A DNA stretch of 47,998 nucleotides from a virus (IMGVR_UViG_3300048839_000320:1-47998), one strand, 5' to 3'; positions 5,618 to 47,998 are shown, counted from the stretch's first letter. Translations and numbers: made by a program. The notes: generated by a model not told the origin, from the letters alone.

Positions 5618-6200
5618 GGTATACCCCCCATTGGCGAGCCATCGCATCCGCGATGCCGCGGTAAGTGGTGGACCGATCGCGCTTGCGCGTCGGGCTCGGG
5701 CCCATCAGCCAGCACGCCGGATGGCGGCCCGTCTCGTCCGGCGTCGTCGGCTTCAACTTCGGCAGATTCTTGAGCCAGAGGCACGTCGCTTTGATTTCGC
5801 CCTTCCCGGGCTCGCCAAGGTGCCAGAACTGCCACGGCTGGATGATCTGGTCCGGCTTGCGAATCTCGCTCGAGATAATGCTCACCGGGTTTTCGACGCA
5901 GATGCGCGGGATCGGCGCCGCCATCAGGTCGCGCACGAACTGCAGCGCTGCCTGCTGGCGCCCATCCGCGCGCTTCTCGGGGAACCAGCGCGCCCCACTG
6001 ACTGCCAGATGATCGCAGGGCGGGTGCGCAATCATCAGGTCCCAATGCCCCGCGTACGCCACTTCAAGCGCGTCCGCCTCGAAGTGGTCGACACTGCCAT
6101 CGCGCGCTGGCAACAGGTCGCACGAGAATGCGGAATGGCCACGCGCGCGAAACATTTGCCTCACGGTGCCACTTTCTTCGCACGCAATCAGGACTCGCAT
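5601..6200 (-). CDS. Cytosine-type DNA methyltransferase, short phage form
   Basis: A 199-residue protein beginning [14 protein letters not shown], a cofactor-binding motif I, followed by SCDLLPA and the catalytic-loop type motif HPPCDHLAVSG (about residues 60-70), then CVENPVS, which resembles the ENV block of C5-cytosine methyltransferases. It lacks a separate target-recognition region, as do the roughly 200-residue phage proteins annotated as DNA cytosine methyltransferase. It would methylate phage DNA or serve an anti-restriction role; the target is unknown. The ATG overlaps the preceding small gene by 13 bases. Confidence 0.7.
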   Translation of the reverse strand: MRVLIACEESGTVRQMFRARGHSAFSCDLLPARDGSVDHFEADALEVAYAGHWDLMIAHPPCDHLAVSGARWFPEKRADGRQQAALQFVRDLMAAPIPRICVENPVSIISSEIRKPDQIIQPWQFWHLGEPGKGEIKATCLWLKNLPKLKPTTPDETGRHPACWLMGPSPTRKRDRSTTYRGIADAMARQWGVYHDDVL

Positions 6201-6343
6201 TTCGGCTCCAGCACCGGAGTCTGCGGGCACAGCCGCTCGTGCGCCTCGCGCATCCGCTTGGCTTGCTCGAGCTCGTCCGCGGTCCACGGGCGAAGGTGGA
6301 ATGGCGGCTTGTCCTTCTCGGGCATGAAGGGCGGGTTGGTCAC
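6188..6343 (-). CDS. Short hypothetical protein
   Basis: A 51-residue frame opening with GTG in a GTGA overlap with the upstream stop; an internal ATG at 6325 would give 45 residues. It reads [16 protein letters not shown] and continues into a charged helix ([15 protein letters not shown]). The NPPF string recalls amino-methyltransferase motif IV, but the protein is far too short for that fold, so this is probably coincidence. It fills an otherwise empty interval in a tightly packed operon. Confidence 0.5.
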
Positions 6344-6579
6344 AACCGACGCCTCGAGTCGGTATTTTGGAACCCTGTCAAAATGTCCAAGGCGTCCTCC
6401 ACGCGTTGCGGGATGAACTGTCCCCGAAGGTGCACCACCTCGTAATTTATCGACGCCAGCATGGCGGCTTCGCGCATTTCAGACGGCGTGAACTCTGCGC
6501 GTCGAATGAACGCTTCCATCATATCCACCAACGCCTTGTACGCCGGGTCGTTTTGGTACTTTTCGCGTGGGGTTCTCAT
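6340..6579 (-). CDS. Hypothetical small protein
   Basis: A 79-residue protein starting [14 protein letters not shown], helical, with [18 protein letters not shown] in the middle. It resembles small phage helper proteins that follow nucleases, but I do not recognise a named family. ATGA and GTGA overlaps with both neighbours support the boundaries. Confidence 0.6.
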
Positions 6580-6728
6580 CGCCGCTTCACCCGCGCGCCC
6601 TGGAAAAAGCCCTCGGGCTCTTTCCACTTGCGCTGCGGCTTGTCGTCCGCCTTGGGCTCGTCGTCACGCGGCCGGCGCGATCGGCGCCCGGGGGTTGGCT
6701 CGGGGATGGCGAGGGGGTCGATTTTCAT
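6576..6728 (-). CDS. Short basic proline-rich protein
   Basis: A 50-residue protein, [19 protein letters not shown], ending GARVKRR; very rich in Arg, Lys and Pro and probably disordered. Both ends overlap neighbours by four bases (ATGA). It might bind nucleic acid through charge alone. No homology recognised. Confidence 0.55.
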
Positions 6729-7087
6729 TTGAGGTTGCTCTCCAGGTATTTGTCGACGGCTTCGTAGGAATCCAAGACATACACGCGGAAGCCCATCGCG
6801 CGACGTCGTTCATGATCGCGTGCCTGCGCAGCGGTCGGCGCTTTTCCCGGCGCCTTGCACTCTACAAACTCGACCCACGCGGGAATGGCGTAGCCAACGT
6901 CAAACGTCGTTACCGGCCACGAGACAATCCGATCCGGCACGCTGGCGCGGTTCGGGCTCGAGAATTTCTCCGCGACGCCCCCGCGCTTGGCCACTTCCTT
7001 GACAAGGTATTCCTCGACGTCGGCCTCGCAGACCTTGCGCTCTTTGCGCTCCGCGAGTGGCGCGTCACCAATGAGTGCAGCTTTCAC
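6725..7087 (-). CDS. VRR-NUC domain nuclease
   Basis: A 120-residue stand-alone VRR-NUC protein (PD-(D/E)XK fold): the active-site series is PD at 51-52 in SVPDRI, E76-x-K78 in FVECKAPG and Q88 in TAAQARDHE, then GFRVYVLDS. Family members are structure-specific endonucleases that probably resolve or trim branched replication or recombination intermediates. The GTG start is chosen because it makes a GTGA overlap with the polymerase stop; no ATG lies near. Stand-alone phage forms are usually 90-130 residues, so it is full length. Confidence 0.85.
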   Translation of the reverse strand: MKAALIGDAPLAERKERKVCEADVEEYLVKEVAKRGGVAEKFSSPNRASVPDRIVSWPVTTFDVGYAIPAWVEFVECKAPGKAPTAAQARDHERRRAMGFRVYVLDSYEAVDKYLESNLK

Positions 7088-9147
7088 TTCCGGTACCTCT
7101 TTGATTCGTAGCCCTTCGCGGCGAGCGGCAGGCCCGGCGCCCATTCCGGCGTCGTGGCCAGCACGTTGCTCAGAGTCTCCGCGTTGAATGCCGGGCTGTC
7201 CGGCGTCTCGGTGTCGAGCTCGTCGTGGACCGTCAGCACGATCGGATAGCCGGCGCGCTCGGCGCCCACCATGCCGTACGCCATGACGTCCCGGGCGAGC
7301 CCCTGCGTAGCGTTCTCGATCAGTTTGCCGCTGTATGTCGGCTCGTGACGCCACGACTTCGTATAGACGTTCCAGGCGGCGTAGTGAATCTGCTGTTGGC
7401 TGCCCTCCAGCTTCGGATTCGGGTACAGCAGGAACCGCCCGGACGGCAGCCGCATCCGCAGCCACGCGCCCTTGCGGTCGAACTGGAGGCGCCCTGCATG
7501 GAACACGTTGCCCGGGTTCAGGATGGCGCTGCGCGCTGCGTTCTCGGCTTGGGCCCATAGCGACACCGTCTCGGGGTGCGCGTCGCGCCAGAGCCGTTTA
7601 AGTGCCTCACACGCCACGTAGACGTCCTCGGACAGCCCGTAGGTGCGGCTGTGCTTGTTCGCCCAGCGCCACGTCCCCTGCGCGTCGAGCAAGGTCGCCT
7701 TGGGGATGGTCGGCAGGGCGCGGCGCGCAAGTTCCTCGAGATCCATGCCATAGGCCGCGGCCATGGCCACGAACGCCCCGACTCCGCCCTCGTAGCCGAG
7801 CGCCAACTCCATGACCTTGCCGATCTGGCGCTCGAGGCTGTCGTCTCCGACGTCGAGCGGGTCGATGCCGAAAGCGCGCGCATAGGCCAGCTTATACAGG
7901 TCCGGGCCCGTGCCGGCGTCGAAGTCGCGGAATGCCTGGAGCTTCCATTCCTCGTCGCCAAGCCATGCGAGGCCGCGTCCCTCGATGTTGGCCAAGTCGC
8001 TGACCACCAGCTTTTTGCCGGGACCGGCGATCAGCGCCGAGCGGATCGCGCTGCTCATGGCTTCCATGATGTCGTCCAGCACGAGGGTTTCGGCGCCGGC
8101 CAGCACTGCCTCGATCGCCGCCTCGATCTGGTCGAACTTGAGGGAGGGGCGCTTGAGGTTCTGCGGCTGGAAATTCCGACCGGCCCAGCGCCCCGTGCGG
8201 AGCGCGCCGCAATACTGCAGCAGATAGTACAGGCGGCCGGCGACCTCGAGGTTCAACAGGCGCTTGTATTTGCTGGTGGACGACTTGCTGGCCGACTGGC
8301 GCAGCCGGAGCAATTCCTTCGCGTACTCCGGTAATTCGGGATCGTCCAGCCGGCGCTCGATCGTGTCCGCCTTGAGATCCGGCAGCGACACGCCATGCTC
8401 GACAAACAAGAACGCCAGCAGCTTGTCGCGCTGCGTCGCGCGCAGGACATTGTCCTCTGTCAATTCCTGCGTGCGCTTCGCGAGGCGTTTCTGCTCCGCG
8501 TCGGTCGCGCGCACGGCAGCCGCGGCGAACGGTACGTCCACGGCGATACCGCGTTGGTTGATGCGCTGGTCAAGATCCCACAGGTCGAGCTCGAAGTCGG
8601 AGTCGTTCCACTTCGGCACCTTGCGGTAGACCTCGCGCATGGCTTCGATGTCGTCGGCAGCGTATGCCAGAAAGCCCTTCCACTCGACGGGGTGCGTCTC
8701 GCGCGTGTTGCGCGTGCCATTCTTGTTCGGCTTGCAGAACAGATTGATGTACTCGCGGCCCTTTTTCTTCGACTTGGAATCGTCGAGCTTGAAGATCGTC
8801 GAGAGCCTTTCGAGCCCGCCCGGCAGCCCGTGGCGGAGGCACGCGGCCATGGTGCAATACCACTTGCCCTCGAGCCTTTTGGCGAGGGACGGCATGGACG
8901 CCTGGATGACGGTGCGATCGAACTGCGCGTTGTGCGCCACAACCCGATCGCATTGCTCTGCGGCAAGGGCCAAGCCGGCGGCTTGCGCATTGGCCGTCAC
9001 GCGATGATCGGTGACGTCCCATGTCTGCACGGGACCGTCGTCGATCGCGTAGGTCACGATCATGACTTCGACTTGCGTCGCGTACTTCGCGAGGCCGCGG
9101 TCGATCGGGACCGTGGAGAAAGTCTCGGTGTCGAGGTAGAGAATCAT
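7084..9147 (-). CDS. Family A DNA polymerase with 3'-5' exonuclease
   Basis: A 687-residue replicative polymerase. The exonuclease has D6-x-E8 (DTETF), an ExoII block AHNAQFD (71-77) and ExoIII YAADD (D166). The polymerase palm has motif A SDLANIEGR (D384), motif B RQIGKVMELALGY (R440, K444, Y452) and motif C VHDEL (641-644). Motif A differs from the usual DYSQIELR, a variant seen in this phage subfamily. It has no 5' nuclease domain. It follows the SSB gene after a hairpin-forming gap (9148-9226) and shows no strong ribosome site of its own. Confidence 0.93.
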   Translation of the reverse strand: MILYLDTETFSTVPIDRGLAKYATQVEVMIVTYAIDDGPVQTWDVTDHRVTANAQAAGLALAAEQCDRVVAHNAQFDRTVIQASMPSLAKRLEGKWYCTMAACLRHGLPGGLERLSTIFKLDDSKSKKKGREYINLFCKPNKNGTRNTRETHPVEWKGFLAYAADDIEAMREVYRKVPKWNDSDFELDLWDLDQRINQRGIAVDVPFAAAAVRATDAEQKRLAKRTQELTEDNVLRATQRDKLLAFLFVEHGVSLPDLKADTIERRLDDPELPEYAKELLRLRQSASKSSTSKYKRLLNLEVAGRLYYLLQYCGALRTGRWAGRNFQPQNLKRPSLKFDQIEAAIEAVLAGAETLVLDDIMEAMSSAIRSALIAGPGKKLVVSDLANIEGRGLAWLGDEEWKLQAFRDFDAGTGPDLYKLAYARAFGIDPLDVGDDSLERQIGKVMELALGYEGGVGAFVAMAAAYGMDLEELARRALPTIPKATLLDAQGTWRWANKHSRTYGLSEDVYVACEALKRLWRDAHPETVSLWAQAENAARSAILNPGNVFHAGRLQFDRKGAWLRMRLPSGRFLLYPNPKLEGSQQQIHYAAWNVYTKSWRHEPTYSGKLIENATQGLARDVMAYGMVGAERAGYPIVLTVHDELDTETPDSPAFNAETLSNVLATTPEWAPGLPLAAKGYESKRYRK

Positions 9148-21146: not shown

Positions 21147-22796
21147 TTGGCTGACGCCGCCCAAACCGTCAACCGCCGCGCGGCGGCGCTCGAGCTACTG
21201 CGCCGGCAGCGTTCGCGCGCCTCGTTGGTGGAGTACGCCCGTTCGATCGACATCCCCGGGGCGCCGGCCAACCAGGATCCAGACACCGAGCACTTCAAGT
21301 CGGTGGAAACGAGCCTCGCGCTCCACCATCGCGTGATCCTGGAGAATATCGAGCGGACGATGGCGACCCCGCGTGGCCGGCTGATGATCTTCGCCCCGCC
21401 GGGCTCCGCGAAATCGTCCTACGCGTCAGTCGTCTCGCCAGCGTGGGCCCTCTCGAGGACGCCCGGGTACCGCATCATCATCGCGTCCTACGCGACGAAG
21501 ATCGCCGCCAAGCAGTCGCGCAAGGCTCGAGCGCTGTGCCGCAGCGACGCGCACATTTCGATCTGGCCGGATCGCCCGATCCTCGCCAACGACCAGAAAG
21601 CCGTTGACCAGTGGGCGCTCTCGAACGGCTCGGAGTTCATGGCAGCGGGCTTGCTGGCCGGCATCACCGGCAACCGCGCCAACGGGATCCTGATCGACGA
21701 CCCTGTCGCCAACCGCGAGGAAGCGGACTCGCAGACCGTGCAGGACAAGATCGAAGCGGAGTTCATCGACTCCGCCTCGACGCGCCTCCTGCCGAACGGC
21801 TGGGTCATCCTGATCCAAACCCGCTGGAACGAGAACGACCTGGCCGGGCGCATCCTGCCCGAGGACTACGCCGGACAGTCCGGCCGCGTGCTCTGCCGCG
21901 ACGGCCAGTGGTGGACCGTCATCAACATCCCGGCCAAGGCGGAGCACCCCGACGACCCGCTCGGCCGCGCGATCGGCGAGTACCTGTGGACCGAATGGTT
22001 CTCGGTGGAGCATTGGGCGCAGTGGGAGAACAACCCGCGCGCCGTGCGCACGTGGGCCTCGCTGTTCCAGCAGCGCCCGACCGCGGGCGAGGGCATCGAG
22101 TTCAAGCGCGAGTGGTTCAAGTGGTACGACCCCGACGTCGAGCCCGGCAAGCCCGGCGGGTTGCCGCGCTCGCTGACCATCTACGGCGCGTCGGACTACG
22201 CGACGAAGGAAGATAAGGGCGACTACACTGAACACGGGGTCTGCGGGATCGGCGAGTCGAAGCTCAAGATGGCGATCGAGGACAAGCTCGTGTCGTCGGC
22301 GCCGTTCTATTTCATCGACTGGTGGTACGGGCAGAAAACGACCGACGTCACGATCGACGCGAAGGTCTCGCTCGTGCATCGCCATCATCCCCGCAAGTGG
22401 TGGCACGAGGGCGGCCCGATCGACCAGGCGATCTCGCCGGCCGTCGCCCGCGCCATGCGTGAGCACCAGCCCCCGGTCTACGTCGCCATGGAAGGACTGA
22501 CGTCGATCAAGAACAAGGCGATCAAGCTCGCGTCGTTCCAGGCGCGCGCCGCGGCCGGTCTGGTATATTTCCCGCTGCGCCGCCCGTGGGCCCAGCGCGT
22601 CGTCGACCAGTTGTGCGCGTTCCCGGCCGGCAAGTACGACGACGCCGCGGACGTCTGCGGCTTGATTGGCCGCGGAGTCGATGCCATGATGGCACCCCAC
22701 GAGCCTACGCCGGTTGTCAGGAAGCAACTCCTGCCGTTCACGGCGGCCTGGCTGGAGGCGACCGAGCAGGAACCCATGCAGCCGAGGTATAGCTAG
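21147..22796 (+). CDS. terL: Terminase large subunit
   Basis: A 549-residue packaging motor. The ATPase has Walker A APPGSAKSS (83-91), an adenine-side IASYATKIA block, Walker B ILIDDP (181-186) and a coupling region with QTRWNENDLAGR. The RNase H-like nuclease has GASDYAT (D350), a following acidic D359 and the C-terminal YDDAADVCGL. These are diagnostic for TerL, which translocates and cuts phage DNA at the portal. Translation starts at a TTG six bases after GAGGGG; no in-frame ATG fits. The stop overlaps the portal start. Confidence 0.93.
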   Translation: MADAAQTVNRRAAALELLRRQRSRASLVEYARSIDIPGAPANQDPDTEHFKSVETSLALHHRVILENIERTMATPRGRLMIFAPPGSAKSSYASVVSPAWALSRTPGYRIIIASYATKIAAKQSRKARALCRSDAHISIWPDRPILANDQKAVDQWALSNGSEFMAAGLLAGITGNRANGILIDDPVANREEADSQTVQDKIEAEFIDSASTRLLPNGWVILIQTRWNENDLAGRILPEDYAGQSGRVLCRDGQWWTVINIPAKAEHPDDPLGRAIGEYLWTEWFSVEHWAQWENNPRAVRTWASLFQQRPTAGEGIEFKREWFKWYDPDVEPGKPGGLPRSLTIYGASDYATKEDKGDYTEHGVCGIGESKLKMAIEDKLVSSAPFYFIDWWYGQKTTDVTIDAKVSLVHRHHPRKWWHEGGPIDQAISPAVARAMREHQPPVYVAMEGLTSIKNKAIKLASFQARAAAGLVYFPLRRPWAQRVVDQLCAFPAGKYDDAADVCGLIGRGVDAMMAPHEPTPVVRKQLLPFTAAWLEATEQEPMQPRYS

Positions 22797-25051
22797 TGGA
22801 CCCCGAGACCAACCCGATGCTCAACGCCGTCGAGTCCGGCATCAATGCCGCCGACACCGAAGGGATGGATGAGGAAGCGAGGCGCCTCAAGGAAGCCGAG
22901 GAAAACGAAGTCAAGGCGCTGTGGGATGAATACGAGCAGGCGCGGAAGTTCGACCGCGACTCCCGCGCGCAGTACGCCGTCGATCGCCGCTACGCGGCCG
23001 GCACGGCGAACCTGAATTGGGCGGTGACGGCGAACCTGATCGGCGCCTTTATCGACATCCTCGTGTCGTTCCTGTATGCCCGCAACCCGGACGTCTCCGC
23101 CCGCAAGGCGAAGCGCGTCGACCCGATCGGCACCGGGCAGGAGGACGACTTCGGCAAGACGATGGAGCTCGTCATCTCGTCGCTGTGGAAAGCGCCGAGC
23201 GCCCGGCTCAAGACGAATGCCCGCGCTCAAGTGCGCTCGGTGCTGACGACCGGTATCGGCTGGCTCAAGGTGCTGATGGTCTCGAACGGCACCAACATCC
23301 CGCAGCTGCAGAACGAGCTCGGCGACATCCGCAAGAACCTTGCGCAGATCGAAGAACTCAAGGCCCGGCTCGCGCGCGACGCGGCCGCGGCGGCAGTCGG
23401 TGCGCCGGACCCGGCCGCGGAGTTTGGCGAGGACGCGACGCTGATGGCGCCCCCGGTGGCCCCGCCCGTCGAGGATCCGGAGAATCCGTACTGCGCGATG
23501 AGCATCGAGGAACGCGACGTCGAGGAAGGGCGCTTGCGCGACCTCGAGGCCAGCGTCTCGAACCGGCTCGAGGTTGCCATCCGCAAGGGATTGGCAGTCG
23601 ACGTCGTCGCTCCAGAGGACATGCAGGTTTCGCTCGACGTGCGCAGCGTGACCGACCATGCGATCGCGAACTGGAACGCCAACGCGATCTATCGGCCGAC
23701 AAAGAGTATCGGCGCGATGTTCCCTGCGCTGACCGAGGCCGACGTCAAGGCGGCCAAGCAATACTTCCAGCGCCGCACCAAGGATCTGCAGCCGCTGAGC
23801 GAGACGGTCAAGCTGACCGGCGTCGCCGACAGTGACGTGGACGCCGAGGCAGCGGAGCAATACACGGCCGGCGGCGGCAGCGGCAATGCCGATGAACAGG
23901 GAGGTTCGTTCGCGAAGATCGTCGAACTGTGGAACCGCGAGACCGGCCACGTCTACACGATGATCGAGGGCGTCAAGAAATGGGCCAAGGCGCCCTACCA
24001 GCCCGACTACGCCTCGACCCGGTTCTACCCGTACTTCCAGATCGCTTTTTACCCGGTAGATGGTGCGCGCCATCCGCAGTCGCTGACATGGCGGCTGATG
24101 AAGTTGCAGGATGAGTACGCTGCTACTCGCTCGAGCCTGCGTTTGACCCGCCAGCGGGCGGTACCGGGTGTCGTTTTCAACTCGACGGAGCTCGATGAGA
24201 CCGAGGCGAAGAAACTCTCGAGCAGCGTGCACCAGGAACTGATCGGCTTGAAGCCGGTCACGCACGACAAGCCGATGCGCGACCTGTTCTCCGAGAAACC
24301 CATCGCGATCGGCGACATGCGGCTGTTCGACACCGCGCCGATCCTCGCAGACATGGAGCGCATCAGTGGCGTACAAGAAGCCCTACAGCAGTCATCGACG
24401 GCGCCGAAAACTGCAACCGAGGCCGAGATTCAGCAAAGTGGTTTCGCTTCACGGACGACGGCGGATCGTGACGTCCTCGAAACAATGCTGACCGAGCTCG
24501 CGCACTACACGGGCGAACTCGCGCTGCAGGCGCTCGACATGAAGGACGCCGAGCGGATCGCGGGCGCCAAGGCTTTCTGGCCGCACGGCATGTCGATCGA
24601 CGACTTGCTGACGATGGTCGAGGTTACGATCGAAGCTGGCACCACGGGCAAGCCGAAGTCGAGCGGCGACCGCGACGCATGGGGCGTCGTCATGCCGCTT
24701 ATCAAGGACTCCATGCTGCAGATTCGCGAAGCGCTGATGATCGGCGATCAGGGCATGGCCGACGCGCTCATCGCCTTGCTGCAGGAAACCCTCACGCGAA
24801 TGGGCGACGACAGCGACGTCACGCGGTTCATTCCGCAGCCCCCGCAGAAACCGCCCGCCATGCCGGGCGCCCCGGGCGCGGTCGACCCCGTTACCGGCGC
24901 TCCTATGGCCGGCGGTCCGGTTGATCCCGTGACGGGCGCCCCGGGCGGCATCCCGCCGGCCGGGCCCAAGGCGGATTTCGCCGGGCAGCCGGTGAACCCC
25001 GAAATGCAGGCACCGGAGCTCGCGCCGCCCGATTTGACGATGATTCAGTAA
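22796..25051 (+). CDS. Portal protein
   Basis: A 751-residue protein directly after TerL, of the size of podovirus-type (T7/P22/epsilon15-like) portals. It begins with an acidic helical region, then WAVTANLIGAFIDILVSFLYARNPDV, written here as the segment at residues 73-98, a stem-like coiled coil (NELGDIRKNLAQIEELKARL) and a long C-terminal helix. Residues ~680-750 are Pro/Gly-rich with a tandem VDPVTGAP repeat and are probably flexible. The GTG start overlaps the TerL stop (TAGTG). It forms the dodecameric DNA gate of the capsid. Confidence 0.88.
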   Translation: MDPETNPMLNAVESGINAADTEGMDEEARRLKEAEENEVKALWDEYEQARKFDRDSRAQYAVDRRYAAGTANLNWAVTANLIGAFIDILVSFLYARNPDVSARKAKRVDPIGTGQEDDFGKTMELVISSLWKAPSARLKTNARAQVRSVLTTGIGWLKVLMVSNGTNIPQLQNELGDIRKNLAQIEELKARLARDAAAAAVGAPDPAAEFGEDATLMAPPVAPPVEDPENPYCAMSIEERDVEEGRLRDLEASVSNRLEVAIRKGLAVDVVAPEDMQVSLDVRSVTDHAIANWNANAIYRPTKSIGAMFPALTEADVKAAKQYFQRRTKDLQPLSETVKLTGVADSDVDAEAAEQYTAGGGSGNADEQGGSFAKIVELWNRETGHVYTMIEGVKKWAKAPYQPDYASTRFYPYFQIAFYPVDGARHPQSLTWRLMKLQDEYAATRSSLRLTRQRAVPGVVFNSTELDETEAKKLSSSVHQELIGLKPVTHDKPMRDLFSEKPIAIGDMRLFDTAPILADMERISGVQEALQQSSTAPKTATEAEIQQSGFASRTTADRDVLETMLTELAHYTGELALQALDMKDAERIAGAKAFWPHGMSIDDLLTMVEVTIEAGTTGKPKSSGDRDAWGVVMPLIKDSMLQIREALMIGDQGMADALIALLQETLTRMGDDSDVTRFIPQPPQKPPAMPGAPGAVDPVTGAPMAGGPVDPVTGAPGGIPPAGPKADFAGQPVNPEMQAPELAPPDLTMIQ

Positions 25052-25064
25052 CAGGAGAGGACAC

Positions 25065-25292
25065 ATGACGACTGTAAACTCGACCAGCGACGATCGCACT
25101 GTCAACAACGTGATGCGCCATGCGTACCGCGTTCTCAGCGATGCGGAAAAGACGCAGATGCAAGCGATCAAGGACAAGGGGCTCGAGCTCCATGACCTGA
25201 TCGAAAGTATGGGTGCGAGCCGCGAGCTTTCGCTGGCCAAGACAAAAACCGAAGAAGCCGTCATGTGGGCGATCAAGCATCTGACGCGCTGA
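25065..25292 (+). CDS. Acb2-like anti-CBASS cyclic-nucleotide sponge
   Basis: A 75-residue helical hairpin protein of the Acb2/Tad1-domain type. It has the family blocks RHAYRVLSDAEKTQMQAIK (18-36) and SRELSLAKTKTEEAVMWAI (51-69). Acb2 proteins form hexamers that sequester cyclic di- and trinucleotides, and so blunt CBASS (and some related) immune signalling. Y21 and K36 have the 15-residue spacing of Y11 and K26, the ligand residues I recall for PaMx33 Acb2. AGGAGAGG precedes the ATG. Its place between portal and scaffold gives late-gene timing unless another promoter exists. Confidence 0.8.
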   Translation: MTTVNSTSDDRTVNNVMRHAYRVLSDAEKTQMQAIKDKGLELHDLIESMGASRELSLAKTKTEEAVMWAIKHLTR

Positions 25293-25304: not shown

Positions 25305-26438
25305 ATGCCCCCCGACGAGACAAGCCTATTGGCCGCCGTTGACGCTGGTATCGCCGAGGCGAGCGCGGCTCCGGCCCCAACTCCGGAGCCGACCAATGAA
25401 TCGACTGGAGACGACAGCCCAGCGCCTGATGCTGGATCTGCGCCGGATGGAAACCCGGTGGCTGGTGGAGAGGCAGCTGCTGCCGATGGACCAGCTGCGG
25501 ATGATGGCGAAGGTGCTGCAGCTGATGGCGATTCTGACGCTGCAAAGGCTGCTGCCGATGCAGCCAAGCCGGTCGAGCCGCCGAAAGCCGAAGGCGATCC
25601 TGCGGCGCAGCCCAAAGCCCTGGACCCGCTGAACGACCCGCTCCCGAACGCGCTCAAGCGCGAGACGAAGGAACGGATCACGACGCTGGTCGGCATGGTC
25701 AAGGAAAAGGACCAGGCGCTGCAGCGCGTCGAGACCGAGCATCGCGAGATCATGGGCGCGATTCTCGAGACGAAAGCGAACCCGGAGCAGTACGGGCAGG
25801 CGCTCGAATACCTGCGCCTCGTGAACAGCCCGAATCGCCATGACCAGGAGCAGGCGCTCGCGTTCATGCAGCAGGAGATCGCCGTCATGGCGCGTCGCCT
25901 CGGCAAGCCGGTGCCCGGCGTCAACATGCTCGAGGGGCACAACGACCTGATCGAAGAAGTCTCGACGGGGCGCCTGTCGCCGGAGCGCGCGCAGGAAATC
26001 GCAGCGGCGCGCGCCGCCGCGCAAGAGGCGCAGCGCCTCGGCCAGCGCCAGCAGCAAAACGAGCAAGTCACGCAGCAGAACCTCCGCGCCGTGAATCAAG
26101 GCAAGGCAGATTTGACCGCGCTTGGCAAGCAGTTGCAGGCAGCGGATCCGACCGGATATGAGGCGAAGCGCAAGATTCTGGTGAACACTTTGAAACCGGT
26201 GTTCGCTACGATTCCTCCTAACCAGTGGGCGGCGACTTTCAAGCGCGCCTACGATGCGTTACCCGCCCCCGCCCGACCGGTTCCGCCTCCATACCCTGCA
26301 ATCAACCCAGGCGCGAAACTTCCGGGCGGGGGCGGGAACACCCCGCTCCGCGCGTCGAACCCGGCGGGCAGTGCCGCCCCGGCGCCCAAGAGCGCAGCAG
26401 AAGCATTGGAGATGGGGCTCGCTGCGGCAGGGAGATGA
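25305..26438 (+). CDS. Capsid scaffold protein
   Basis: A 377-residue protein with a disordered acidic Ala/Pro-rich first third, a long helical middle (ERITTLVGMVKEKDQALQRV, EQALAFMQQEIAVMARR) and a Pro/Gly-rich region before a short C-terminal helix (SAAEALEMGLAAAGR). Composition, length and location between portal and capsid fit an internal scaffolding protein that guides capsid assembly, normally binding the coat through its C-terminal helix. AGGAGAGG precedes the ATG. It is separated from the capsid gene by about 3 kb of inserted genes, which is unusual. Confidence 0.75.
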   Translation: MPPDETSLLAAVDAGIAEASAAPAPTPEPTNESTGDDSPAPDAGSAPDGNPVAGGEAAAADGPAADDGEGAAADGDSDAAKAAADAAKPVEPPKAEGDPAAQPKALDPLNDPLPNALKRETKERITTLVGMVKEKDQALQRVETEHREIMGAILETKANPEQYGQALEYLRLVNSPNRHDQEQALAFMQQEIAVMARRLGKPVPGVNMLEGHNDLIEEVSTGRLSPERAQEIAAARAAAQEAQRLGQRQQQNEQVTQQNLRAVNQGKADLTALGKQLQAADPTGYEAKRKILVNTLKPVFATIPPNQWAATFKRAYDALPAPARPVPPPYPAINPGAKLPGGGGNTPLRASNPAGSAAPAPKSAAEALEMGLAAAGR

Positions 26439-26614
26439 CAACGGAGGAAAAGCCGCGTACCAAGCGGCCGGGACGCTACCGTAAAAAGAGCGAGAAGCGT
26501 GCCCTGTTGGCGGAGCACGCCATCTGGCTCGAGCAAGGGCAGCGCTTCGAGGCAGATTTCAGCAACGCGCCGATCGCGAAGTGGTACGCGGCGCGCTATG
26601 GGGGCCGGAGATGA
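26435..26614 (+). CDS. Small basic protein
   Basis: A 59-residue protein with a strongly basic start (KPRTKRPGRYRKKSEKR) and an amphipathic helix (HAIWLEQGQRFEADF). ATG and TGA overlap both neighbours by four bases, tying it to the following cassette. It may bind DNA, RNA or the scaffold. No family recognised. Confidence 0.55.
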   Translation: MTTEEKPRTKRPGRYRKKSEKRALLAEHAIWLEQGQRFEADFSNAPIAKWYAARYGGRR

Positions 26615-27540
26615 AGCAATACACGATACTCGACGAGCGGGGTAACTGGTTCGCCCCATCCATGGAGGCTGCCCGGCGCCGCGGCTACGAAGTCGAGCGC
26701 ATCAAACGAGGCCGCGAAGCCAAACTCCGCGGCCTCGGTTTCATTCGGCCCCATGCCATTCCGACAATCCTGCAGCAGAACCATCTCGACTACCTCGAGA
26801 TGGCCGAGCACCTGACGATGGTGCAGGACTTCGCGCAAGTCGAGAATTACGACGACAAGAGCGCGCAGTTCTGGCGCTGTGGCAAGTGGATGCCGAAAAC
26901 GTGGCGCTTCGATAACCGCGATGCCGCCATGTACTTCCTCGAGACGCGTGCTCCGGACATCCTCGTGTCGAAAGCCGACGTCGGCGCGAGCTCGAAGAAC
27001 GTCCGCATCCTGCGCAACCGCGGCGACCAAAAGGCGCACGTCCGCGATCTATTCAGCAAGGGCATCATCGTCGATCACTGCGCCGGGGGCCACGGCAGTC
27101 GCGGCGCGACCTCGCGCCAGCGCGGTTACGTGCTGTTCCAGGACTACATCCCGCACGACTGCACGTGGCGCGTGAATATCGTCGGCCGCGGTCGGGCGAT
27201 GTTCAAGCGCTACAACGGAGCGGCCGGCACCGCTGAGACAGGCAATGTCGAGCCCGTCGTGGATTACGACAGCGCGCTCGTGCAGGCGATCCTCGCGTTC
27301 GCTGACACAATCTTTGTTTCGATCGCAACAAAGTGGTGCGCCCTCGACATCCTGCACGACCAGCGCGATGGCAGCCTCTACTTGCTTGAAACAAGCCTCG
27401 GCTGGCCTTGGCCCTCGCCCGGAACGTGCGACGACGCCCCGTTCGTCGGTCCGCTCGAGCACCCGTACCGTTGGCGCGATATGTGGGAACTGATGCTCGA
27501 CGAATACGAGGCCGGGGTATGGGCAAAATCTTCTGGCTGA
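26611..27540 (+). CDS. ATP-grasp fold ligase-like protein
   Basis: A 309-residue protein with the series expected of ATP-grasp enzymes: K121 and the flexible glycine loop VGASSKNVRIL (124-134), the linker strand YVLFQDYIPHD (173-183), CTWRVNIVG (184-192) with a basic residue in the binding site, then metal-site residues D246 (WCALDIL) and E260 (LYLLETS). These enzymes join a carboxylate to an amine or thiol by an acyl-phosphate. The N-terminal ~100 residues are a different domain. It heads a cassette with glycosyltransferase-like genes, so it may modify a peptide, glycan or virion protein; the substrate is unknown. The ATG overlaps the upstream stop. Confidence 0.72.
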   Translation: MKQYTILDERGNWFAPSMEAARRRGYEVERIKRGREAKLRGLGFIRPHAIPTILQQNHLDYLEMAEHLTMVQDFAQVENYDDKSAQFWRCGKWMPKTWRFDNRDAAMYFLETRAPDILVSKADVGASSKNVRILRNRGDQKAHVRDLFSKGIIVDHCAGGHGSRGATSRQRGYVLFQDYIPHDCTWRVNIVGRGRAMFKRYNGAAGTAETGNVEPVVDYDSALVQAILAFADTIFVSIATKWCALDILHDQRDGSLYLLETSLGWPWPSPGTCDDAPFVGPLEHPYRWRDMWELMLDEYEAGVWAKSSG

Positions 27541-27791
27541 TATGGGCGTGGGCACGCCCGATCCGCATCTCGTGGAACATGCTGTGCTGCGCCATCCTGT
27601 TCGCGCCATGGGGCGTGTTGCCTCGCGAGACGATTTCCGGCTGGACCGGGCGCAACGCACACGTCCGCTGGGTGCGGCGCCTCGAGCAATTCATCGACTG
27701 GCTGCATCCGCACGAGCCGAATCACTGCTTTGAAACCGCGGTTGTCGAAGCGCTCGCGCGTCGCGCGCTGTACCCGGAGCTATACAAGTGA
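27519..27791 (+). CDS. Small hydrophobic protein of the modification cassette
   Basis: A 90-residue protein with an aromatic hydrophobic N-terminal half (MGKIFWLIWAWARPIR, MLCCAILFAPWGVLP) that could be one or two membrane-associated segments, then a basic helix and a HPHEPNHCFE block. It overlaps the ATP-grasp gene by 22 bases and the glycosyltransferase by four. It could anchor the cassette's enzymes to the membrane. No family recognised. Confidence 0.55.
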   Translation: MGKIFWLIWAWARPIRISWNMLCCAILFAPWGVLPRETISGWTGRNAHVRWVRRLEQFIDWLHPHEPNHCFETAVVEALARRALYPELYK

Positions 27792-28690
27792 TTTCGGTAA
27801 TCACGTTCAAGTACCGGCGCCCGGACTACCGGACCACGTACACGTCGGAGCACGTCAACGCGCTGGCCGCGATGACGGCGCGCTACTACAACCATCCGCA
27901 CCGCTTTTTCTGCGTCACCGACGACCCGGAAGGGCTCGCGGATGGCATCGAGTACGTGCCGCTGTGGCCGGATCACTTCAACCTCGTGAACCCGTCGCAC
28001 CCGACGTCGCGACCGAACTGCTACCCGCGGCTCAAGCTGTTCTCGCGCGAAATGGCTGCGATCTTCGGGCCGCGCTACGTGTCGCTCGACCTCGACATGG
28101 TCATGGTGGACGACGTCGCTCCGCTCTGGCAGCGGCCGGAGGGGTTCGTCATTTACGACGCGCGCGGCGACGACCACTACAACGGCTCGATGTTTCTGCA
28201 GACTGCCGGGTTCCACCAGGAAGTGTGGGACGACTTCGACCCGGTCGAGTCTCCGAAGCTCACGACGGCAGCGCGGATGCGCGGCTCGGATCAGGCATGG
28301 ATACGGTACAAGCTGGCGCCGAACGCTGCCGTTTGGGACTACAACCATGGCGTGTACGCGTACCTGAATCTCGTGCCGCCGTATCGCCATCGTCGACTCG
28401 CGCGGCTCAACGTCGTCGTCCCGCGCAACGGTCAGCCGAAGCCGGCGGGTCCGATTGCCTCTCCGGTGACGCCACTCCGCGATGGTTCGCTACCCGAGAA
28501 CGCTCGAGTCGTCGTATTCGCAGGAGAATTCAAGCCATGGGAGCCGCGCACGCAGGGGATGTCGCCGTGGATCAAAGATCACTACCCGCTTCGGTTGTTG
28601 ACCTCTATCTCAGACACGCCGACCGTCCTGCCATCATTATCGGCGGAGGCCCCAGCGCGCCGTCTCAAATATCGTCGCTCCCGCGGCTAG
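27788..28690 (+). CDS. Glycosyltransferase (GT-A type)
   Basis: A 300-residue protein with a GT-A layout: an N-terminal VITFKYRRPDY strand, FFCVTDDPEGL, PRLKLFSREM, the metal/nucleotide-sugar motif SLDLDMVMVDD (D101-x-D103) and DHYNGSMFL, then an acceptor-side GSDQAWI. These are typical of glycosyltransferases found in phage and capsule loci. The GTG start forms a GTGA overlap with the preceding gene. The last ~50 codons overlap the next gene in another frame, and residues after about 270 look unconserved. It probably transfers a sugar to a virion component or host glycan. Confidence 0.75.
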   Translation: MISVITFKYRRPDYRTTYTSEHVNALAAMTARYYNHPHRFFCVTDDPEGLADGIEYVPLWPDHFNLVNPSHPTSRPNCYPRLKLFSREMAAIFGPRYVSLDLDMVMVDDVAPLWQRPEGFVIYDARGDDHYNGSMFLQTAGFHQEVWDDFDPVESPKLTTAARMRGSDQAWIRYKLAPNAAVWDYNHGVYAYLNLVPPYRHRRLARLNVVVPRNGQPKPAGPIASPVTPLRDGSLPENARVVVFAGEFKPWEPRTQGMSPWIKDHYPLRLLTSISDTPTVLPSLSAEAPARRLKYRRSRG

Positions 28691-29367
28691 TCGTCACGCG
28701 CGCCGTCATCATTTCCGCGAACGGGCACGCGCCGAAGCTGGGGCTGCAGCCCGACTACATTTTCTGCAAGGATCACACGCACACCGAGACGCGCGAGAGC
28801 ATGGAGGCGTTGCTGCGGCCGCTCGGTGCGCCGATCGTCTCGAGACAGCATTGGGCCGACTACCGCGCGCCGCAGTGGCCGATTCAGGGCAACAGCGGGC
28901 AGATGGCGCTGGGGCTGGGCGTGTTGCTCGGCTGCGCGCCTGTCATCGCTGTGGGCTTCGACTGCTACCAGAACGGGACCTACTTCCACGACCCGGACGC
29001 GAAGAACGTCAGCCGGGGGCGGCTCGAGTCGCACTGGCAGCTGAAATACAAGCGCCTGGCAGAGAAACTTGCCGCCTCGAGCATCCGGTTCGTCGACCGC
29101 GCTTTCATCCGCGCGTTCCCGAAATACGACCCGGCGGAGACCTTTCCCGTTGCCCATATCCCTCCCGCGCTGCAGCAGTACCGGGACATGAAGGTCTACA
29201 CGGCACGGGCGCTGCGCGACTTCGGGCTGCGCTTCGACGCTCGAGCGACGGTCCCCGCCGGCAAGGTGTTTGCCATCAGCGCATTTGAAGCCGGGCACCA
29301 TCTGCGCGAAGGGGAGATCGAGATAGTTGACAGCGACCCGGGCACTGTGATTTCATCCAGTCCGTAA
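28537..29367 (+). CDS. Maf/DUF115-like Rossmann-fold protein
   Basis: A 276-residue protein with IIIGGGPSAPSQ (about 33-44), SANGHAPKLGLQPDYIFCKD, an NSGQMALGLGVLLGCAPVI block and GFDCYQNGTYFHDP. This matches the motility-accessory-factor/DUF115 group, related to 6-hydroxymethylpterin pyrophosphokinase MptE-like proteins, many of which transfer nonulosonic acids or similar sugars. The ATG has AGGAGA nine bases upstream and lies 154 bases inside the glycosyltransferase gene, so part of the Rossmann motif is encoded in the overlap. It closes the cassette and precedes the structured capsid leader. Confidence 0.72.
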   Translation: MGAAHAGDVAVDQRSLPASVVDLYLRHADRPAIIIGGGPSAPSQISSLPRLVVTRAVIISANGHAPKLGLQPDYIFCKDHTHTETRESMEALLRPLGAPIVSRQHWADYRAPQWPIQGNSGQMALGLGVLLGCAPVIAVGFDCYQNGTYFHDPDAKNVSRGRLESHWQLKYKRLAEKLAASSIRFVDRAFIRAFPKYDPAETFPVAHIPPALQQYRDMKVYTARALRDFGLRFDARATVPAGKVFAISAFEAGHHLREGEIEIVDSDPGTVISSSP

Positions 29368-29488
29368 GCAACTGCGCCGAGGGGAGTACCCCTACTCGCA
29401 AGAGTGACCGGGTTCGCATCCGGCAAAAGTTCCACGGGCTCGTTGCTCCCTGGCAAACGGTAACAACCCTTTTGCTTTGGAGACATCC
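29368..29488 (+). ncRNA. Structured leader of the capsid gene, possible pseudoknot
   Basis: The 121 bases between the Maf-like gene and the capsid ATG can fold into a closed multibranch element. P1 pairs AGCAAC (29367-29372) with GTTGCT (29442-29447). Inside are three hairpins: AGGGG/CCCCT (29380-29384, 29389-29393; loop AGTA), ACTC/GAGT (29394-29397, 29402-29405; GNRA loop GCAA) and CCGG/CCGG (29408-29411, 29420-29423). GCAAAAG (29423-29429), inside P1, can pair with CTTTTGC (29469-29475), outside it and one base before the ribosome site, forming a pseudoknot. Paired by eye only. Confidence 0.5.
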
Positions 29489-30541
29489 ATGCCTTTCAAT
29501 ACCGAACAGCTGGCCTATGCTGGCAAGCACGTTCTCGACTACTACCTCAAGAACGACCCGATCGACCAGATCAACACCGAGCGCCCGCTTCTCAAGAAGT
29601 TGCTGGCCGGCAAGACGCCTTACGGCGGCGGCCTCCAGTACGTCGTCGAGCAGCTGCGCTACGCGAACGACAGCAACTTCCAGTCCTTCTTCGGCGACAG
29701 CACGGTTTCCTACAACCGGAAGCGCACGCTCGAGCAGGCGAAGTTCAGCTACGGCGCGTTCCACGACGGTTTCGGCCTGAACGAGGACGAGCTCGTGCAG
29801 AACGGCATCACCCTGACCGACGACAAGAATGCCGTCGCGTCGGACGCCGAGAAGTTCCAGCTGACGAACCTCCTGACCGAGAACATGGAGACGCTGAAGC
29901 TCGGCTTCGAGGAAAACTTCGACCTGATGCTGCACCGCGACGGTTCGGCCTCGGCGACGGACATCCCGGGCCTCGACTCGCTGATTTCGCTCACCCCGAG
30001 CGCGTCGGCCACGATCGGTACCCTCAACCAGCAGACGTATGCCTGGTGGAGGAACTACGCCGACCTCAACATTTCCACGGCGACGTCGGGCAACCTGGTC
30101 GACCGCATGGAAATCGCGTGGCGCGAGTGCACCCGTCGCGGCGGCCAAAAGCCGGACTTCATCCTGGTCGGCTCGGACTTCCTCGACGCGTACCGTCAGG
30201 ACGCCAGCGACACCGTGAACCGTCGTTTGAACACGACCGGCCGCGGCAACACCGCAGTGGACGCGTCGGTCGACGGCGTGTACTTCAAGGGTGTGGAACT
30301 GGTGTGGGATCCGGTGTTCGACGACCTCGACACGGCGGACAGCCCGGCAACGGAGTGGGCGAAGCGCTGCTACTTCATCAATACGAAGCACATCAAGCTG
30401 CGCCCGATCAAGGGTCACTGGATGGTGTCGCGCAAGCCGCCTCGCGTCTACGACCGGTACGTCCACTATTGGGCGCTCACGTCGCGGGCCGCGCTGACGA
30501 CCAACAAGCGCAACGCGCACGCCGTTCTGTCGATCTACTGA
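29489..30541 (+). CDS. Major capsid protein
   Basis: A 350-residue protein of the HK97-fold coat group found in podovirus-type phages (similar in style to those of epsilon15/BPP-1-like phages). Blocks include INTERPLLKKLLAGKTPYGG, RTLEQAKFSYGAFHDGFGLN, NTTGRGNTAVDASVDGVYFK and the C-terminal LRPIKGHWMVSRKPPRVYD. It has no N-terminal prohead peptide, in keeping with a separate scaffold. The ATG is six bases after TTGGAG, which lies at the edge of the structured leader. A TTG at 29477 is in frame but is part of the ribosome site. Confidence 0.85.
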   Translation: MPFNTEQLAYAGKHVLDYYLKNDPIDQINTERPLLKKLLAGKTPYGGGLQYVVEQLRYANDSNFQSFFGDSTVSYNRKRTLEQAKFSYGAFHDGFGLNEDELVQNGITLTDDKNAVASDAEKFQLTNLLTENMETLKLGFEENFDLMLHRDGSASATDIPGLDSLISLTPSASATIGTLNQQTYAWWRNYADLNISTATSGNLVDRMEIAWRECTRRGGQKPDFILVGSDFLDAYRQDASDTVNRRLNTTGRGNTAVDASVDGVYFKGVELVWDPVFDDLDTADSPATEWAKRCYFINTKHIKLRPIKGHWMVSRKPPRVYDRYVHYWALTSRAALTTNKRNAHAVLSIY

Positions 30542-41116: not shown

Positions 41117-42802
41117 GTGGCGAAGAAAACAGTCAACCGCACAAAGTACCAGCTTGAGGACAACGTCAAGCGGGTGCTGTTCCTGAATCGCGGGCAGGAG
41201 AACACCGACCCGTTCGCTATTCCGTACGCGACCCGGGCGGAGGCCGACGCCGGCATCGCGCTTGACAAGGTCATGAACCCGGACGTGACGGCGTACGCGT
41301 ACGACCGGCTCCGCCATCCCGCTCAACACTCCGCCGGCAAGGGCACGAGTGTGGCGACGTTGCAGCCGGTCTCCGGCGTCGTGCCGGTCGACTGCCGGCG
41401 CTCCAACGTGTTCGCGCTGACGTTCACCGAGAACCTGTTGCTTGGCAACCCGATCAACGGCTTCTCTGGTCAGGTCATCAACTTCATCTTCCAGCAGGAC
41501 GAAGTCGGTAGCCGGACGGTCACGTTTGGCGACGCGTACGCGTTTGTTGGCGGGTTCACCCCGCAGCTGAGCACGGCGGCCGGCGCCGTCGATCTGATGT
41601 CGTGCCAGTATTACCCGTCACTCAACCTGTGGCTGTGCTCCTGGCTGCCGGACTACACCGGCACCGGGACAGGCGCGTTGACCCTGCCGGAGGGGCCAGA
41701 GGGTCCGGCCGGACCAGCAGGCGCTACAGGTGCTACCGGCGCAACAGGCGCTACGGGTGCTACCGGCGCAACAGGCGCTACGGGCCCGGCTGGCCCGACC
41801 GGGGCCACGGGCGCTACGGGCCCGGCCGGCGCGGACGGCGTCGTGCAAAGTGTCGTCGCCGGCACCAACGTGACCGTCGACAGCACCGACCCGGCGAACC
41901 CGATCGTGAGCGCGACGGGCGGCGGTGGATCGTCCACTTTCGACGGACTGATCGACGTGGACGTGTACGCGGCGGTCGACGGGGACGTGCCGATTTACGA
42001 CAGCGCGACCGGGACGTGGGTCGCCGGGCCGCAGACAGGCGGCGGTGGCGGTAGCGGCGGATCTGGTGGCGTTGGCGTGACTCACGTTGACGCACCTCCG
42101 GCCACGCCTGAGGCCGAGGACGACGAGTTTGAGGGGACGACGCTCGACACGGCCAAGTGGGCCTATGGTGCTGACTGGAGCGCCGGGTCAGTGGCGGCCG
42201 AGGAACAGGTCGATGGCGCGTACGTCATCAAGCTGAACGCAGCAGGCACGGCGAACGAGAAGGCGTACGCGCAGGTGCAGGCTGGCTCGACGTACAAGTA
42301 TCGAGCGAAGGTGAGAATCTTCACGGCAGGAAGTGATGGTGATGCGCTAGACAACCCAGCCAACTACGCTCGCATAGAGATTTTCGTAGCCACTGACTCA
42401 GACAACAAGCGCGTCTCATCTGTCTGCGAATGGAACGGCGGCAGCTGGTACTTCGGCGCGCGCCGCACCACGGGGGCAACGTACAACTCAGGGGCCAATT
42501 ATGTGGCCTCACTGATTCCGACTACGACACCTCCGTTGGGGCTCTACCTTGAGATAGAGGATGACGGCACGAATATCTATTTTCGCGCCTCGATTTCCGG
42601 GCACAAAGGGACGTTTGCCACGTTCCGCTCAGAGTCACGCACGACACACCTCGGTGGCACCGCTGATCGCGTTGGGTTTGCGGTCTGCGGCGCTGGATCA
42701 GGGCAGCCCGTCATTGGTGTAGTCGAGTGGTTCCGCAAGATCGGTAGCACGTACGCGCCCGGGGCATTTATAGCGAACGGCACGTCAGGTGGCACGTCGT
42801 GA
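41117..42802 (+). CDS. Tail fibre with collagen-like shaft
   Basis: A 561-residue protein starting at GTG three bases after the previous gene. Residues 1-190 form an attachment-type head ([20 protein letters not shown]...). A collagen-like GXX repeat follows (about 196-240: [16 protein letters not shown]...), then a Gly-rich spacer ([11 protein letters not shown]) and a C-terminal concanavalin/LamG-like sugar-binding domain ([19 protein letters not shown] to [16 protein letters not shown]). This is the layout of a trimeric receptor-binding fibre. The 27-base DNA repeats in the shaft could vary in number. Confidence 0.8.
41729..41784 (+). repeat. 27-base tandem repeat in the collagen-like shaft
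   Basis: A 29-base unit at 41729-41757 is repeated exactly at 41756-41784 with a 27-base period, three GXX triplets. Slippage would keep the frame and change shaft length. Confidence 0.85.
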
Positions 42803-47431: not shown

Positions 47432-47725
47432 ATGTCAACAGCCAAACCGAAGGGCAAGGGGCTCGACGCGTTCCGCGCTCAGCACGACAAAACTTTCATC
47501 ATCCCGACGCGGATTAAAGCCGGCCTTGCCGAGCTCGGGGACAGCTGGGAATACGAAGTCGACTTCTGCCGCCGTTGCGGTGTATCGCTTTCCGACTTCG
47601 CGAACTTCCGCGACGCGTTCATTGATTTCTCCGTAGCGACCCCGCGCACAGCCGGCCGCAGCCACGGCAAGCGCGTATGGACCGGATCCAAGGCGTTCGC
47701 TGCGAAGCTCAGAGGAATGCTCTAA
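47432..47725 (+). CDS. Hypothetical protein with LDAFRAQHD motif, possible DNA-binding
   Basis: A 97-residue basic protein. Residues 10-19 (GLDAFRAQHD) match the start of the phosphoesterase gene that follows (SLDAFRAAHD). The middle, YEVDFCRRCGVSLSDFANFRD, resembles a small helix-turn-helix, and the end is basic (GRSHGKRVWTGSKAFAAKLR). AGGAGG lies a few bases before the ATG. Its stop overlaps the next ATG (CTAATGG), so the two genes are coupled. It may recruit or regulate the phosphoesterase; that is inference. Confidence 0.62.
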   Translation: MSTAKPKGKGLDAFRAQHDKTFIIPTRIKAGLAELGDSWEYEVDFCRRCGVSLSDFANFRDAFIDFSVATPRTAGRSHGKRVWTGSKAFAAKLRGML

Positions 47726-47837
47726 TGGCAACCGGCAACAGTCTCGACGCGTTTCGCGCAGCCCACGATCCGACTCACAAGATCCTCGACCCGCTGACGA
47801 TATTCGAGAGACCGTTGCCGAAGGACGCCAAGCGCTT
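47717..47837. repeat. Terminal repeat, right copy
   Basis: Identical to bases 1-121. From 47838 to the window end the sequence remains collinear with 122-282 but diverges, mostly at codon third positions with a few amino-acid changes, for example FLFVAAQNATPVEKDWW against FIVTAAQNATPVHDKWW. Confidence 0.85.
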
Positions 47838-47998
47838 TCTTTTTGTGGCCGCGCAGAACGCAACGCCCGTCGAGAAGGACTGGTGGGCGACGCTGCGAGT
47901 CATGGCTGCAGCGCTCGAGGCGGAGATCCTGGTGATCCCGCTGCGCTACAAGAACCCGACGAGCCAGTGGACGGGCAGCCAGCAGAACGCGGAGCATT
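47725..47998 (+). CDS. Metallophosphoesterase gene, second copy or allele, truncated by the window end
   Basis: The first 91 codons of a gene homologous to that at 9-1472. Codons 1-37 are identical at the DNA level and the rest is about 85% identical by eye at the protein level with no indels. It is cut by the window end, so the metal-binding blocks are not seen. AGAGGA at 47711-47716 is the ribosome site. Either this is the same locus in a circular genome represented by another strain's allele, or a genuine paralogue in tandem. Confidence 0.8.
   Translation, partial: MATGNSLDAFRAAHDPTHKILDPLTIFERPLPKDAKRFLFVAAQNATPVEKDWWATLRVMAAALEAEILVIPLRYKNPTSQWTGSQQNAEH

Follow-up and report, generated by a model that had tools for sequence, protein, structure and literature searches.

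A conserved ATP-grasp, glycosyltransferase, and DUF115 gene set between the head genes of an uncultured virus, with a tentative role in surface modification

The window analyzed here is a 47,998-base record of an uncultured virus. Its left arm, on the minus strand, carries replication genes (DNA polymerase, helicase, and primase), and its right arm, on the plus strand, carries the virion genes in the order terL, portal-position gene, Acb2/Tad1 gene, scaffold-position gene, a five-gene cassette, and major capsid gene. The features of this region are as follows.

21147-22796, plus strand: terL (phrog_38, E 8e-77)
22796-25051, plus strand: portal-position gene, named by its place, the family matches being unconvincing
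25065-25292, plus strand: Acb2/Tad1 hairpin protein of 75 aa (Pfam, E 3.3e-19)
25305-26438, plus strand: scaffold-position gene of 377 aa, named by its place between portal and capsid; left border
26435-29367, plus strand: cassette of five same-strand open frames, each overlapping the next
26435-26614, plus strand: basic protein of 59 aa, present only in contigs 100% identical to the window
26611-27540, plus strand: predicted ATP-grasp ligase of 309 aa with a RimK/LysX-like fold (AF2 model, Foldseek, invariant residues)
27519-27791, plus strand: small protein of 90 aa with one hydrophobic stretch (phrog_3342, conserved PRETxSGxxGR...HC)
27788-28690, plus strand: GT8-like GT-A glycosyltransferase (GT) of 300 aa with a GTG start (phrog_1962, E 1.1e-8)
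28537-29367, plus strand: MptE-like/DUF115 protein of 276 aa, GT42/Maf-related (Pfam MptE-like)
29489-30541, plus strand: major capsid gene (phrog_9953, E 2.3e-36); right border

The original prediction had placed five overlapping genes between the scaffold and capsid genes, and all five frames were recovered there on the plus strand, along with each of the motifs it quoted: VGASSKNVRIL and LETS (within LLETS) in the ATP-grasp protein, DLDMVMVDD in the GT, and IIIGGGPS and NSGQMALG in the MptE-like protein. The overlaps are typical of translational coupling. The ATP-grasp gene starts at 26611, a 4-nt overlap with the preceding stop. For the small protein the most likely start is the ATG at 27519, since position 27537 offers no ATG, GTG, or TTG codon, and for the MptE-like gene it is the ATG at 28537 behind AGGAGAA, which gives a 154-nt overlap with the GT gene. 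The promoter and terminator scan gave no signal beyond chance expectation, a DNA-level search of named phages with the window returned no matches, and the scaffold-position gene had no family match at E ≤ 0.001 in Pfam and phrog searches.

Some further observations were made in the window. The Acb2/Tad1 protein between the portal and scaffold genes (25065-25292) is related to the anti-CBASS protein Acb2 and is also present in contigs L005 and L049. The start of the first gene (9-1472, a DNA transfer protein, phrog_1745) nearly matches that of the cut-off last gene (47725-47997), a likeness that reflects either a tandem paralogue or, in a circular or terminally redundant genome, the seam of the assembly. 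Finally, the capsid gene is preceded by an intergenic leader of about 120 nt (29368-29488) with 86% mean column identity among six clade sequences and apparent compensatory changes in the hairpins CTCGCAAGAG, CCCGCAAGGG, and CCCGTTCGGG, making it a candidate structured RNA leader. Its core pattern was present only in four relatives and two identical copies, an Rfam search with it returned no matches, and its single-sequence fold is unremarkable (z −1.34).

The claim that the scaffold and capsid genes are normally adjacent was examined in named relatives, which were located via the capsid protein (26-28% identity for two full-length matches). In Microcystis phage Mae-Yong1326-1 the order is terL, portal, a 381-aa gene, and capsid, with no gaps in gene order, which supports the claim. 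Mx8 has a similar order from terL to capsid plus one small additional gene, and in the circular record of RHph_N65 the scaffold-position gene comes last while the capsid gene starts at base 23. It follows that the scaffold/capsid junction of the window carries an insertion. L078, a relative that lacks the module, has a metalloprotease-like gene (HELAH, 4435-4965) at this position and a small phrog_3342-like gene after it, and the junction therefore resembles an insertion hot spot.

The ATP-grasp fold is well supported by prediction. The AF2 model (pLDDT 86.2) matched 467 PDB chains at E ≤ 0.001 in Foldseek, the top ones being ATP-grasp ligases (ArgX 1.2e-11, RimK 2.6e-11, and LysX about 1e-11), in line with what had been proposed for this gene from its motifs. 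By sequence, the searches against Pfam and PDB gave sub-threshold matches only. Residues K121, G125-S128, R187, R200, D246, E260, and S262 are invariant in 28 family members, and the motifs are collinear with those of E. coli RimK (hhalign E 0.098, where the support comes from motif order alone). The features that mark membership in the RimK/LysX peptide-ligase assemblage were found, namely the conserved Lys, the Gly/Ser loop, the Arg in the first strand of the C-lobe, and the Asp and Glu metal ligands. In the same weak-scoring hhalign alignment, the invariant R187 falls on the Arg of RimK strand S5, which marks the peptide-bond-forming assemblage of ATP-grasps that make peptide-like links (Burroughs et al. 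2015, PMC4431377). Carboxylate-amine ligation is therefore the expected activity of the modeled protein. It differs from RimK, LysX, and ArgX in having just 12-16% identity to them, ExS in place of the ExN motif, a conserved WPWPS tail, and a phage-only gene context. No relatives were found among named phages by sequence, and BFVD contains further phage ATP-grasps of similar fold, including that of Atu_ph07. Membership in the R2K clade (CDC123 and phage R2K.2/R2K.3), which also includes phage ATP-grasps proposed to modify proteins, was rejected, as none of the 28 members had an R2K Pfam match at E ≤ 0.1; the word glycosyltransferase does not occur in the R2K paper (PMC4431377).

The identification of the fourth gene as a glycosyltransferase held up, and the enzyme can be described as GT8-like. 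The family profile matched glycogenin with an E-value of 4e-5 over the stretch of DxD, GSDQ, and FxGxxxPW; glycogenin and the GT8 galactosyltransferases share DxD, G(S/G)DQ, and FxGxxxPW with it. DLD, GSDQ, and FxG are invariant across 26 GT sequences, including D101, D103, and G166-Q169, and the GT of the window keeps F244, G246, P250, and W251. The His of HxxGxxKPW binds metal in glycogenin, and at the aligned position the GT has V. The Pfam GT8 cut-off was not reached: only 2 of the 26 members matched at E ≤ 0.1 (best 0.001), and the GT of the window was not among them. For these two reasons we call the protein GT8-like and do not file it as GT8.

The last gene had been called Maf/DUF115-like, and here too the profiles agree. 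The protein passes the Pfam gathering cut-off for MptE-like/DUF115 (PF01973; 36.1 bits against 34.6), matches phrog_4603, "alpha-2,3-sialyltransferase", with an E-value of 1e-8, and its family profile matches the GT42 enzyme CstII at E 0.0013. Over its N-terminal half the similarity is to Maf and archaeal HPPK, with a GPS-type motif shared with the flagellin transferase Maf 5mu5, and over its C-terminal half to CstII, around NSG...GFDCYQNG. Maf proteins are large and multi-domain with a central DUF115 (the 5mu5 chain has 666 aa), while the protein of the window is a single domain. Its AF2 model (pLDDT 83.6) lies nearest SteA and archaeal HPPK in Foldseek (E about 5e-4; HPPK 5.6e-4), a sialyltransferase follows at 0.045, and CstII is missing among the best 50 fold matches listed. 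Our reading is a DUF115 protein that stands between the branches of the pyrophosphokinases and of GT42, and a transferase role is favored by its phage context and by its fusion to the GT in one contig, described below.

In the small protein, PRETxSGxxGR comes after the single hydrophobic segment and an HC stands late in the sequence; 23 of 24 members match phrog_3342, and the protein is probably membrane-bound. It is not exclusive to the module, as six contigs carry it alone. The basic protein, counted as a cassette member in the original prediction, did not hold that place: it is confined to near-identical copies of the window virus and is probably outside the conserved set.

Co-conservation was assessed by pattern-plus-tblastn scans of 2.9 million viral contigs, which yielded 32 ATP-grasp contigs and 40 small-protein contigs; in the merged scans the ATP-grasp family was present in 42. 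Among contigs reaching far enough, a GT gene lay near the ATP-grasp gene in 38 of 38, the small-protein gene in 40 of 41, and the MptE-like gene in 32 of 33, the last count leaving out nine more contigs, short on one side, in which no MptE-like gene is seen. These are not independent events, as the window has three 100% identical copies among the contigs and there is kinship within groups, and the number of capsid backgrounds is a safer measure. Four such backgrounds were found, in which the set lies next to head or connector genes: the phrog_9953 type of the window itself; HK97-type phrog_617 siphoviruses with portal, Ad1, and Hc1; Gp13-like PF20036 (contig L010); and Phage_capsid_2 PF19821 (L044), in which the ATP-grasp and GT genes are present and the small protein went undetected. 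The siphovirus carriers have the order terL, protease, capsid, portal, collagen-like protein, Ad1, Hc1, the set, tail terminator, and tape measure. Their MptE-like proteins are shorter and just 13-19% identical to that of the window, so their function may not be strictly equivalent.

The arrangement of the genes varies among the carriers. In L010 a single frame (6038-7432) encodes the GT followed by the MptE-like protein. The order in L059 and L070 is permuted to GT, ATP-grasp, small protein, and MptE-like, which shows that the genes stay together even when their order changes. Some carriers have O-methyltransferase-like and GDPD-like genes inserted inside the set. The dN/dS values of the module genes (about 0.10-0.47, with 0.20-0.24 for scaffold, portal, and capsid) indicate purifying selection. 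Mantel co-divergence was discarded as a sign of functional coupling: the correlations within group 2 (r 0.38-0.77) were no stronger than those against tail and portal genes and thus reflect shared descent. In 84,980 bacterial and archaeal genomes no relatives were found, in one scan with narrow peptide patterns that distant relatives could escape. The gene set is real and widely conserved, and the conservation of gene content in other phages that the original prediction called for is borne out by the 42 contigs. Of the outcomes that would have refuted that prediction, neither a missing fold nor missing co-conservation came about.

The closest likeness among described viruses is an island of Tetraselmis viridis virus S20 (TVGG_00041-00049), situated between the head genes and Hc1, with a GT 36% identical to that of the window, two "alpha-2,3-sialyltransferase" (MptE-like) genes, and a methyltransferase gene. 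It differs in that the ATP-grasp and the phrog_3342 protein were undetected there. Phage virion glycosylation systems are also alike in having phage GT genes that lie near virion genes and are kept across phages. Mycobacteriophages Che8 and Rita have phage glycosyltransferases and glycans on the major capsid protein (Freeman 2023, as reported in PMC11256854). In Maravista, the GT genes are near the 3' end of the genome, and that article does not mention an ATP-grasp ligase. GT or "sialyltransferase" islands between head genes, as in TvV-S20, and capsid glycans, as on Che8, are already documented. A full-text search for the combination of ATP-grasp, glycosyltransferase, and DUF115 in phages found no paper, which is weak evidence as few subscription papers were covered.

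Tentatively, and at somewhat less than even confidence, we propose that the cassette is a conserved, horizontally spread phage surface-modification module that decorates a virion protein. The four core genes, encoding the ATP-grasp, the single-hydrophobic-segment protein, the GT8-like enzyme, and the MptE/DUF115-GT42-like enzyme, travel together beside the head genes of phages with unrelated capsids. Judging by its position, the cassette would be made late together with the head proteins. The GT8-like enzyme could transfer a first hexose from a UDP-sugar onto a virion protein, or extend a primer, and the DUF115/GT42-like enzyme would add a second, plausibly acidic, sugar. The ATP-grasp would then convert a carboxylate, of the acidic sugar or of a protein end, to an acyl phosphate and join it to an amine or amino acid. 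The virion surface so decorated would differ in adsorption, stability, or recognition. The steps would fit together chemically, since the carboxylate on GT42-type donors is one that an ATP-grasp could activate. In favor of the proposal are the co-occurrence in 42 contigs, the location in four capsid backgrounds, the GT::MptE fusion, the permuted orders in L059 and L070, the ATP-grasp fold and residues, and the extra modifying genes inside the set. The Che8 capsid glycans provide a precedent for virion decoration, and Maf acts in the cytoplasm on a polymerizing structural protein, flagellin being glycosylated before export (PMC4065374). As no nucleotide-sugar or nonulosonate synthesis gene was recognized among the window proteins scanned, the sugar donors must come from the host, a point that counts against the proposal. 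A bolder version, in which the particles carry an amidated or aminoacylated acidic glycan of a kind not known before, with the ATP-grasp modifying the carboxylate of the sugar set by the DUF115/GT42-like enzyme, and in which a self-contained viral glycopeptide-like coat moves between unrelated capsids, is in our judgement unlikely.

Several points speak against virion decoration. The capsid families differ among carriers with no shared acceptor evident, the hydrophobic segment of the small protein makes a site at a membrane more fitting than one on a capsid, by predicted fold the MptE-like model stands nearer to pyrophosphokinases than to GT42, and the GT lacks the H of glycogenin's HxxGxxKPW at the aligned position. 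With regard to acceptors, the window encodes a tail-fibre-like protein (41117-42802) with a collagen-like stretch rich in Gly-Ala-Thr (GAT) repeats, a possible O-glycan acceptor. Collagen-like repeats were found in 15 of the 31 records searched, and in the siphovirus carriers a collagen-like (Gly-X-Y) protein lies near the module between portal and head-tail adaptor (L047, 5658-6566). A collagen-like protein as the general acceptor was rejected, as it is missing from two carriers of 49.9 kb (G001) and 49.5 kb (G003).

The set might instead remodel a host envelope glycan late in infection, changing LPS or another surface glycan so as to mask receptors, block superinfection, or free released virions from debris, with the small protein docking the enzymes at the inner membrane. 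GT8 includes LPS hexosyltransferases, GT42 includes lipooligosaccharide sialyltransferases, among them chains matched by the MptE-like profile, and relatives in both families have known lipopolysaccharide roles. Together with the one hydrophobic segment of the small protein, these roles keep host-surface modification a strong rival, and the main one; a distant relative of the small protein in an apparent lysis gene cluster (L080) and the GDPD-like and methyltransferase genes that accompany the set point the same way. However, the cassette sits in the late head gene block, and, unlike typical seroconversion genes, it lacks relatives in both bacterial genomes and prophages at the sensitivity of the scan, which counts against a role in lysogenic conversion; we regard host-glycan remodeling as possible but rather unlikely. 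The top structural matches of the ATP-grasp, ArgX, LysX, and RimK, are carrier-protein and ribosomal-protein ligases, and phage R2K ATP-grasps have been proposed to tag host proteins (PMC4431377, PMC7824862). The ATP-grasp could accordingly add amino acids to a protein of the phage or the host, at the C-terminus or on a side chain, with the GTs separate or acting on the tag. The presence of the GT in all 38 evaluable contigs argues for a joint task, however, and the sequence similarity to RimK is weak, so that such tagging appears improbable.

A shared insertion site for independent morons with no joint function would fit the six contigs with the small protein but no other set member, the metalloprotease-like gene in the slot of L078, and the GT-like and MptE-like genes of TvV-S20 that occur without an ATP-grasp. 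The near-total co-occurrence over four capsid backgrounds, the GT::MptE fusion, and the permuted orders in L059 and L070 make this quite improbable. The nearest confident folds of the MptE-like protein and its Pfam name would also suit a diphosphokinase, with an activated pterin- or sugar-like small molecule as its product, in place of a glycosyltransferase. Against this stand the match of its C-terminal half to CstII, its fusion to the GT, and the annotation of its phage relatives as sialyltransferases, and we consider such an activity highly improbable.

Phage virion glycosylation is known from few systems. A carboxylate ligase that nearly always accompanies two sugar-transferase-like enzymes suggests a defined chemistry, one that mass spectrometry can test. 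If virion decoration by this gene set is true, phage biology would gain ligase-modified glycans and a marker for finding them in metagenomes, with consequences for how phages escape recognition or sticking.
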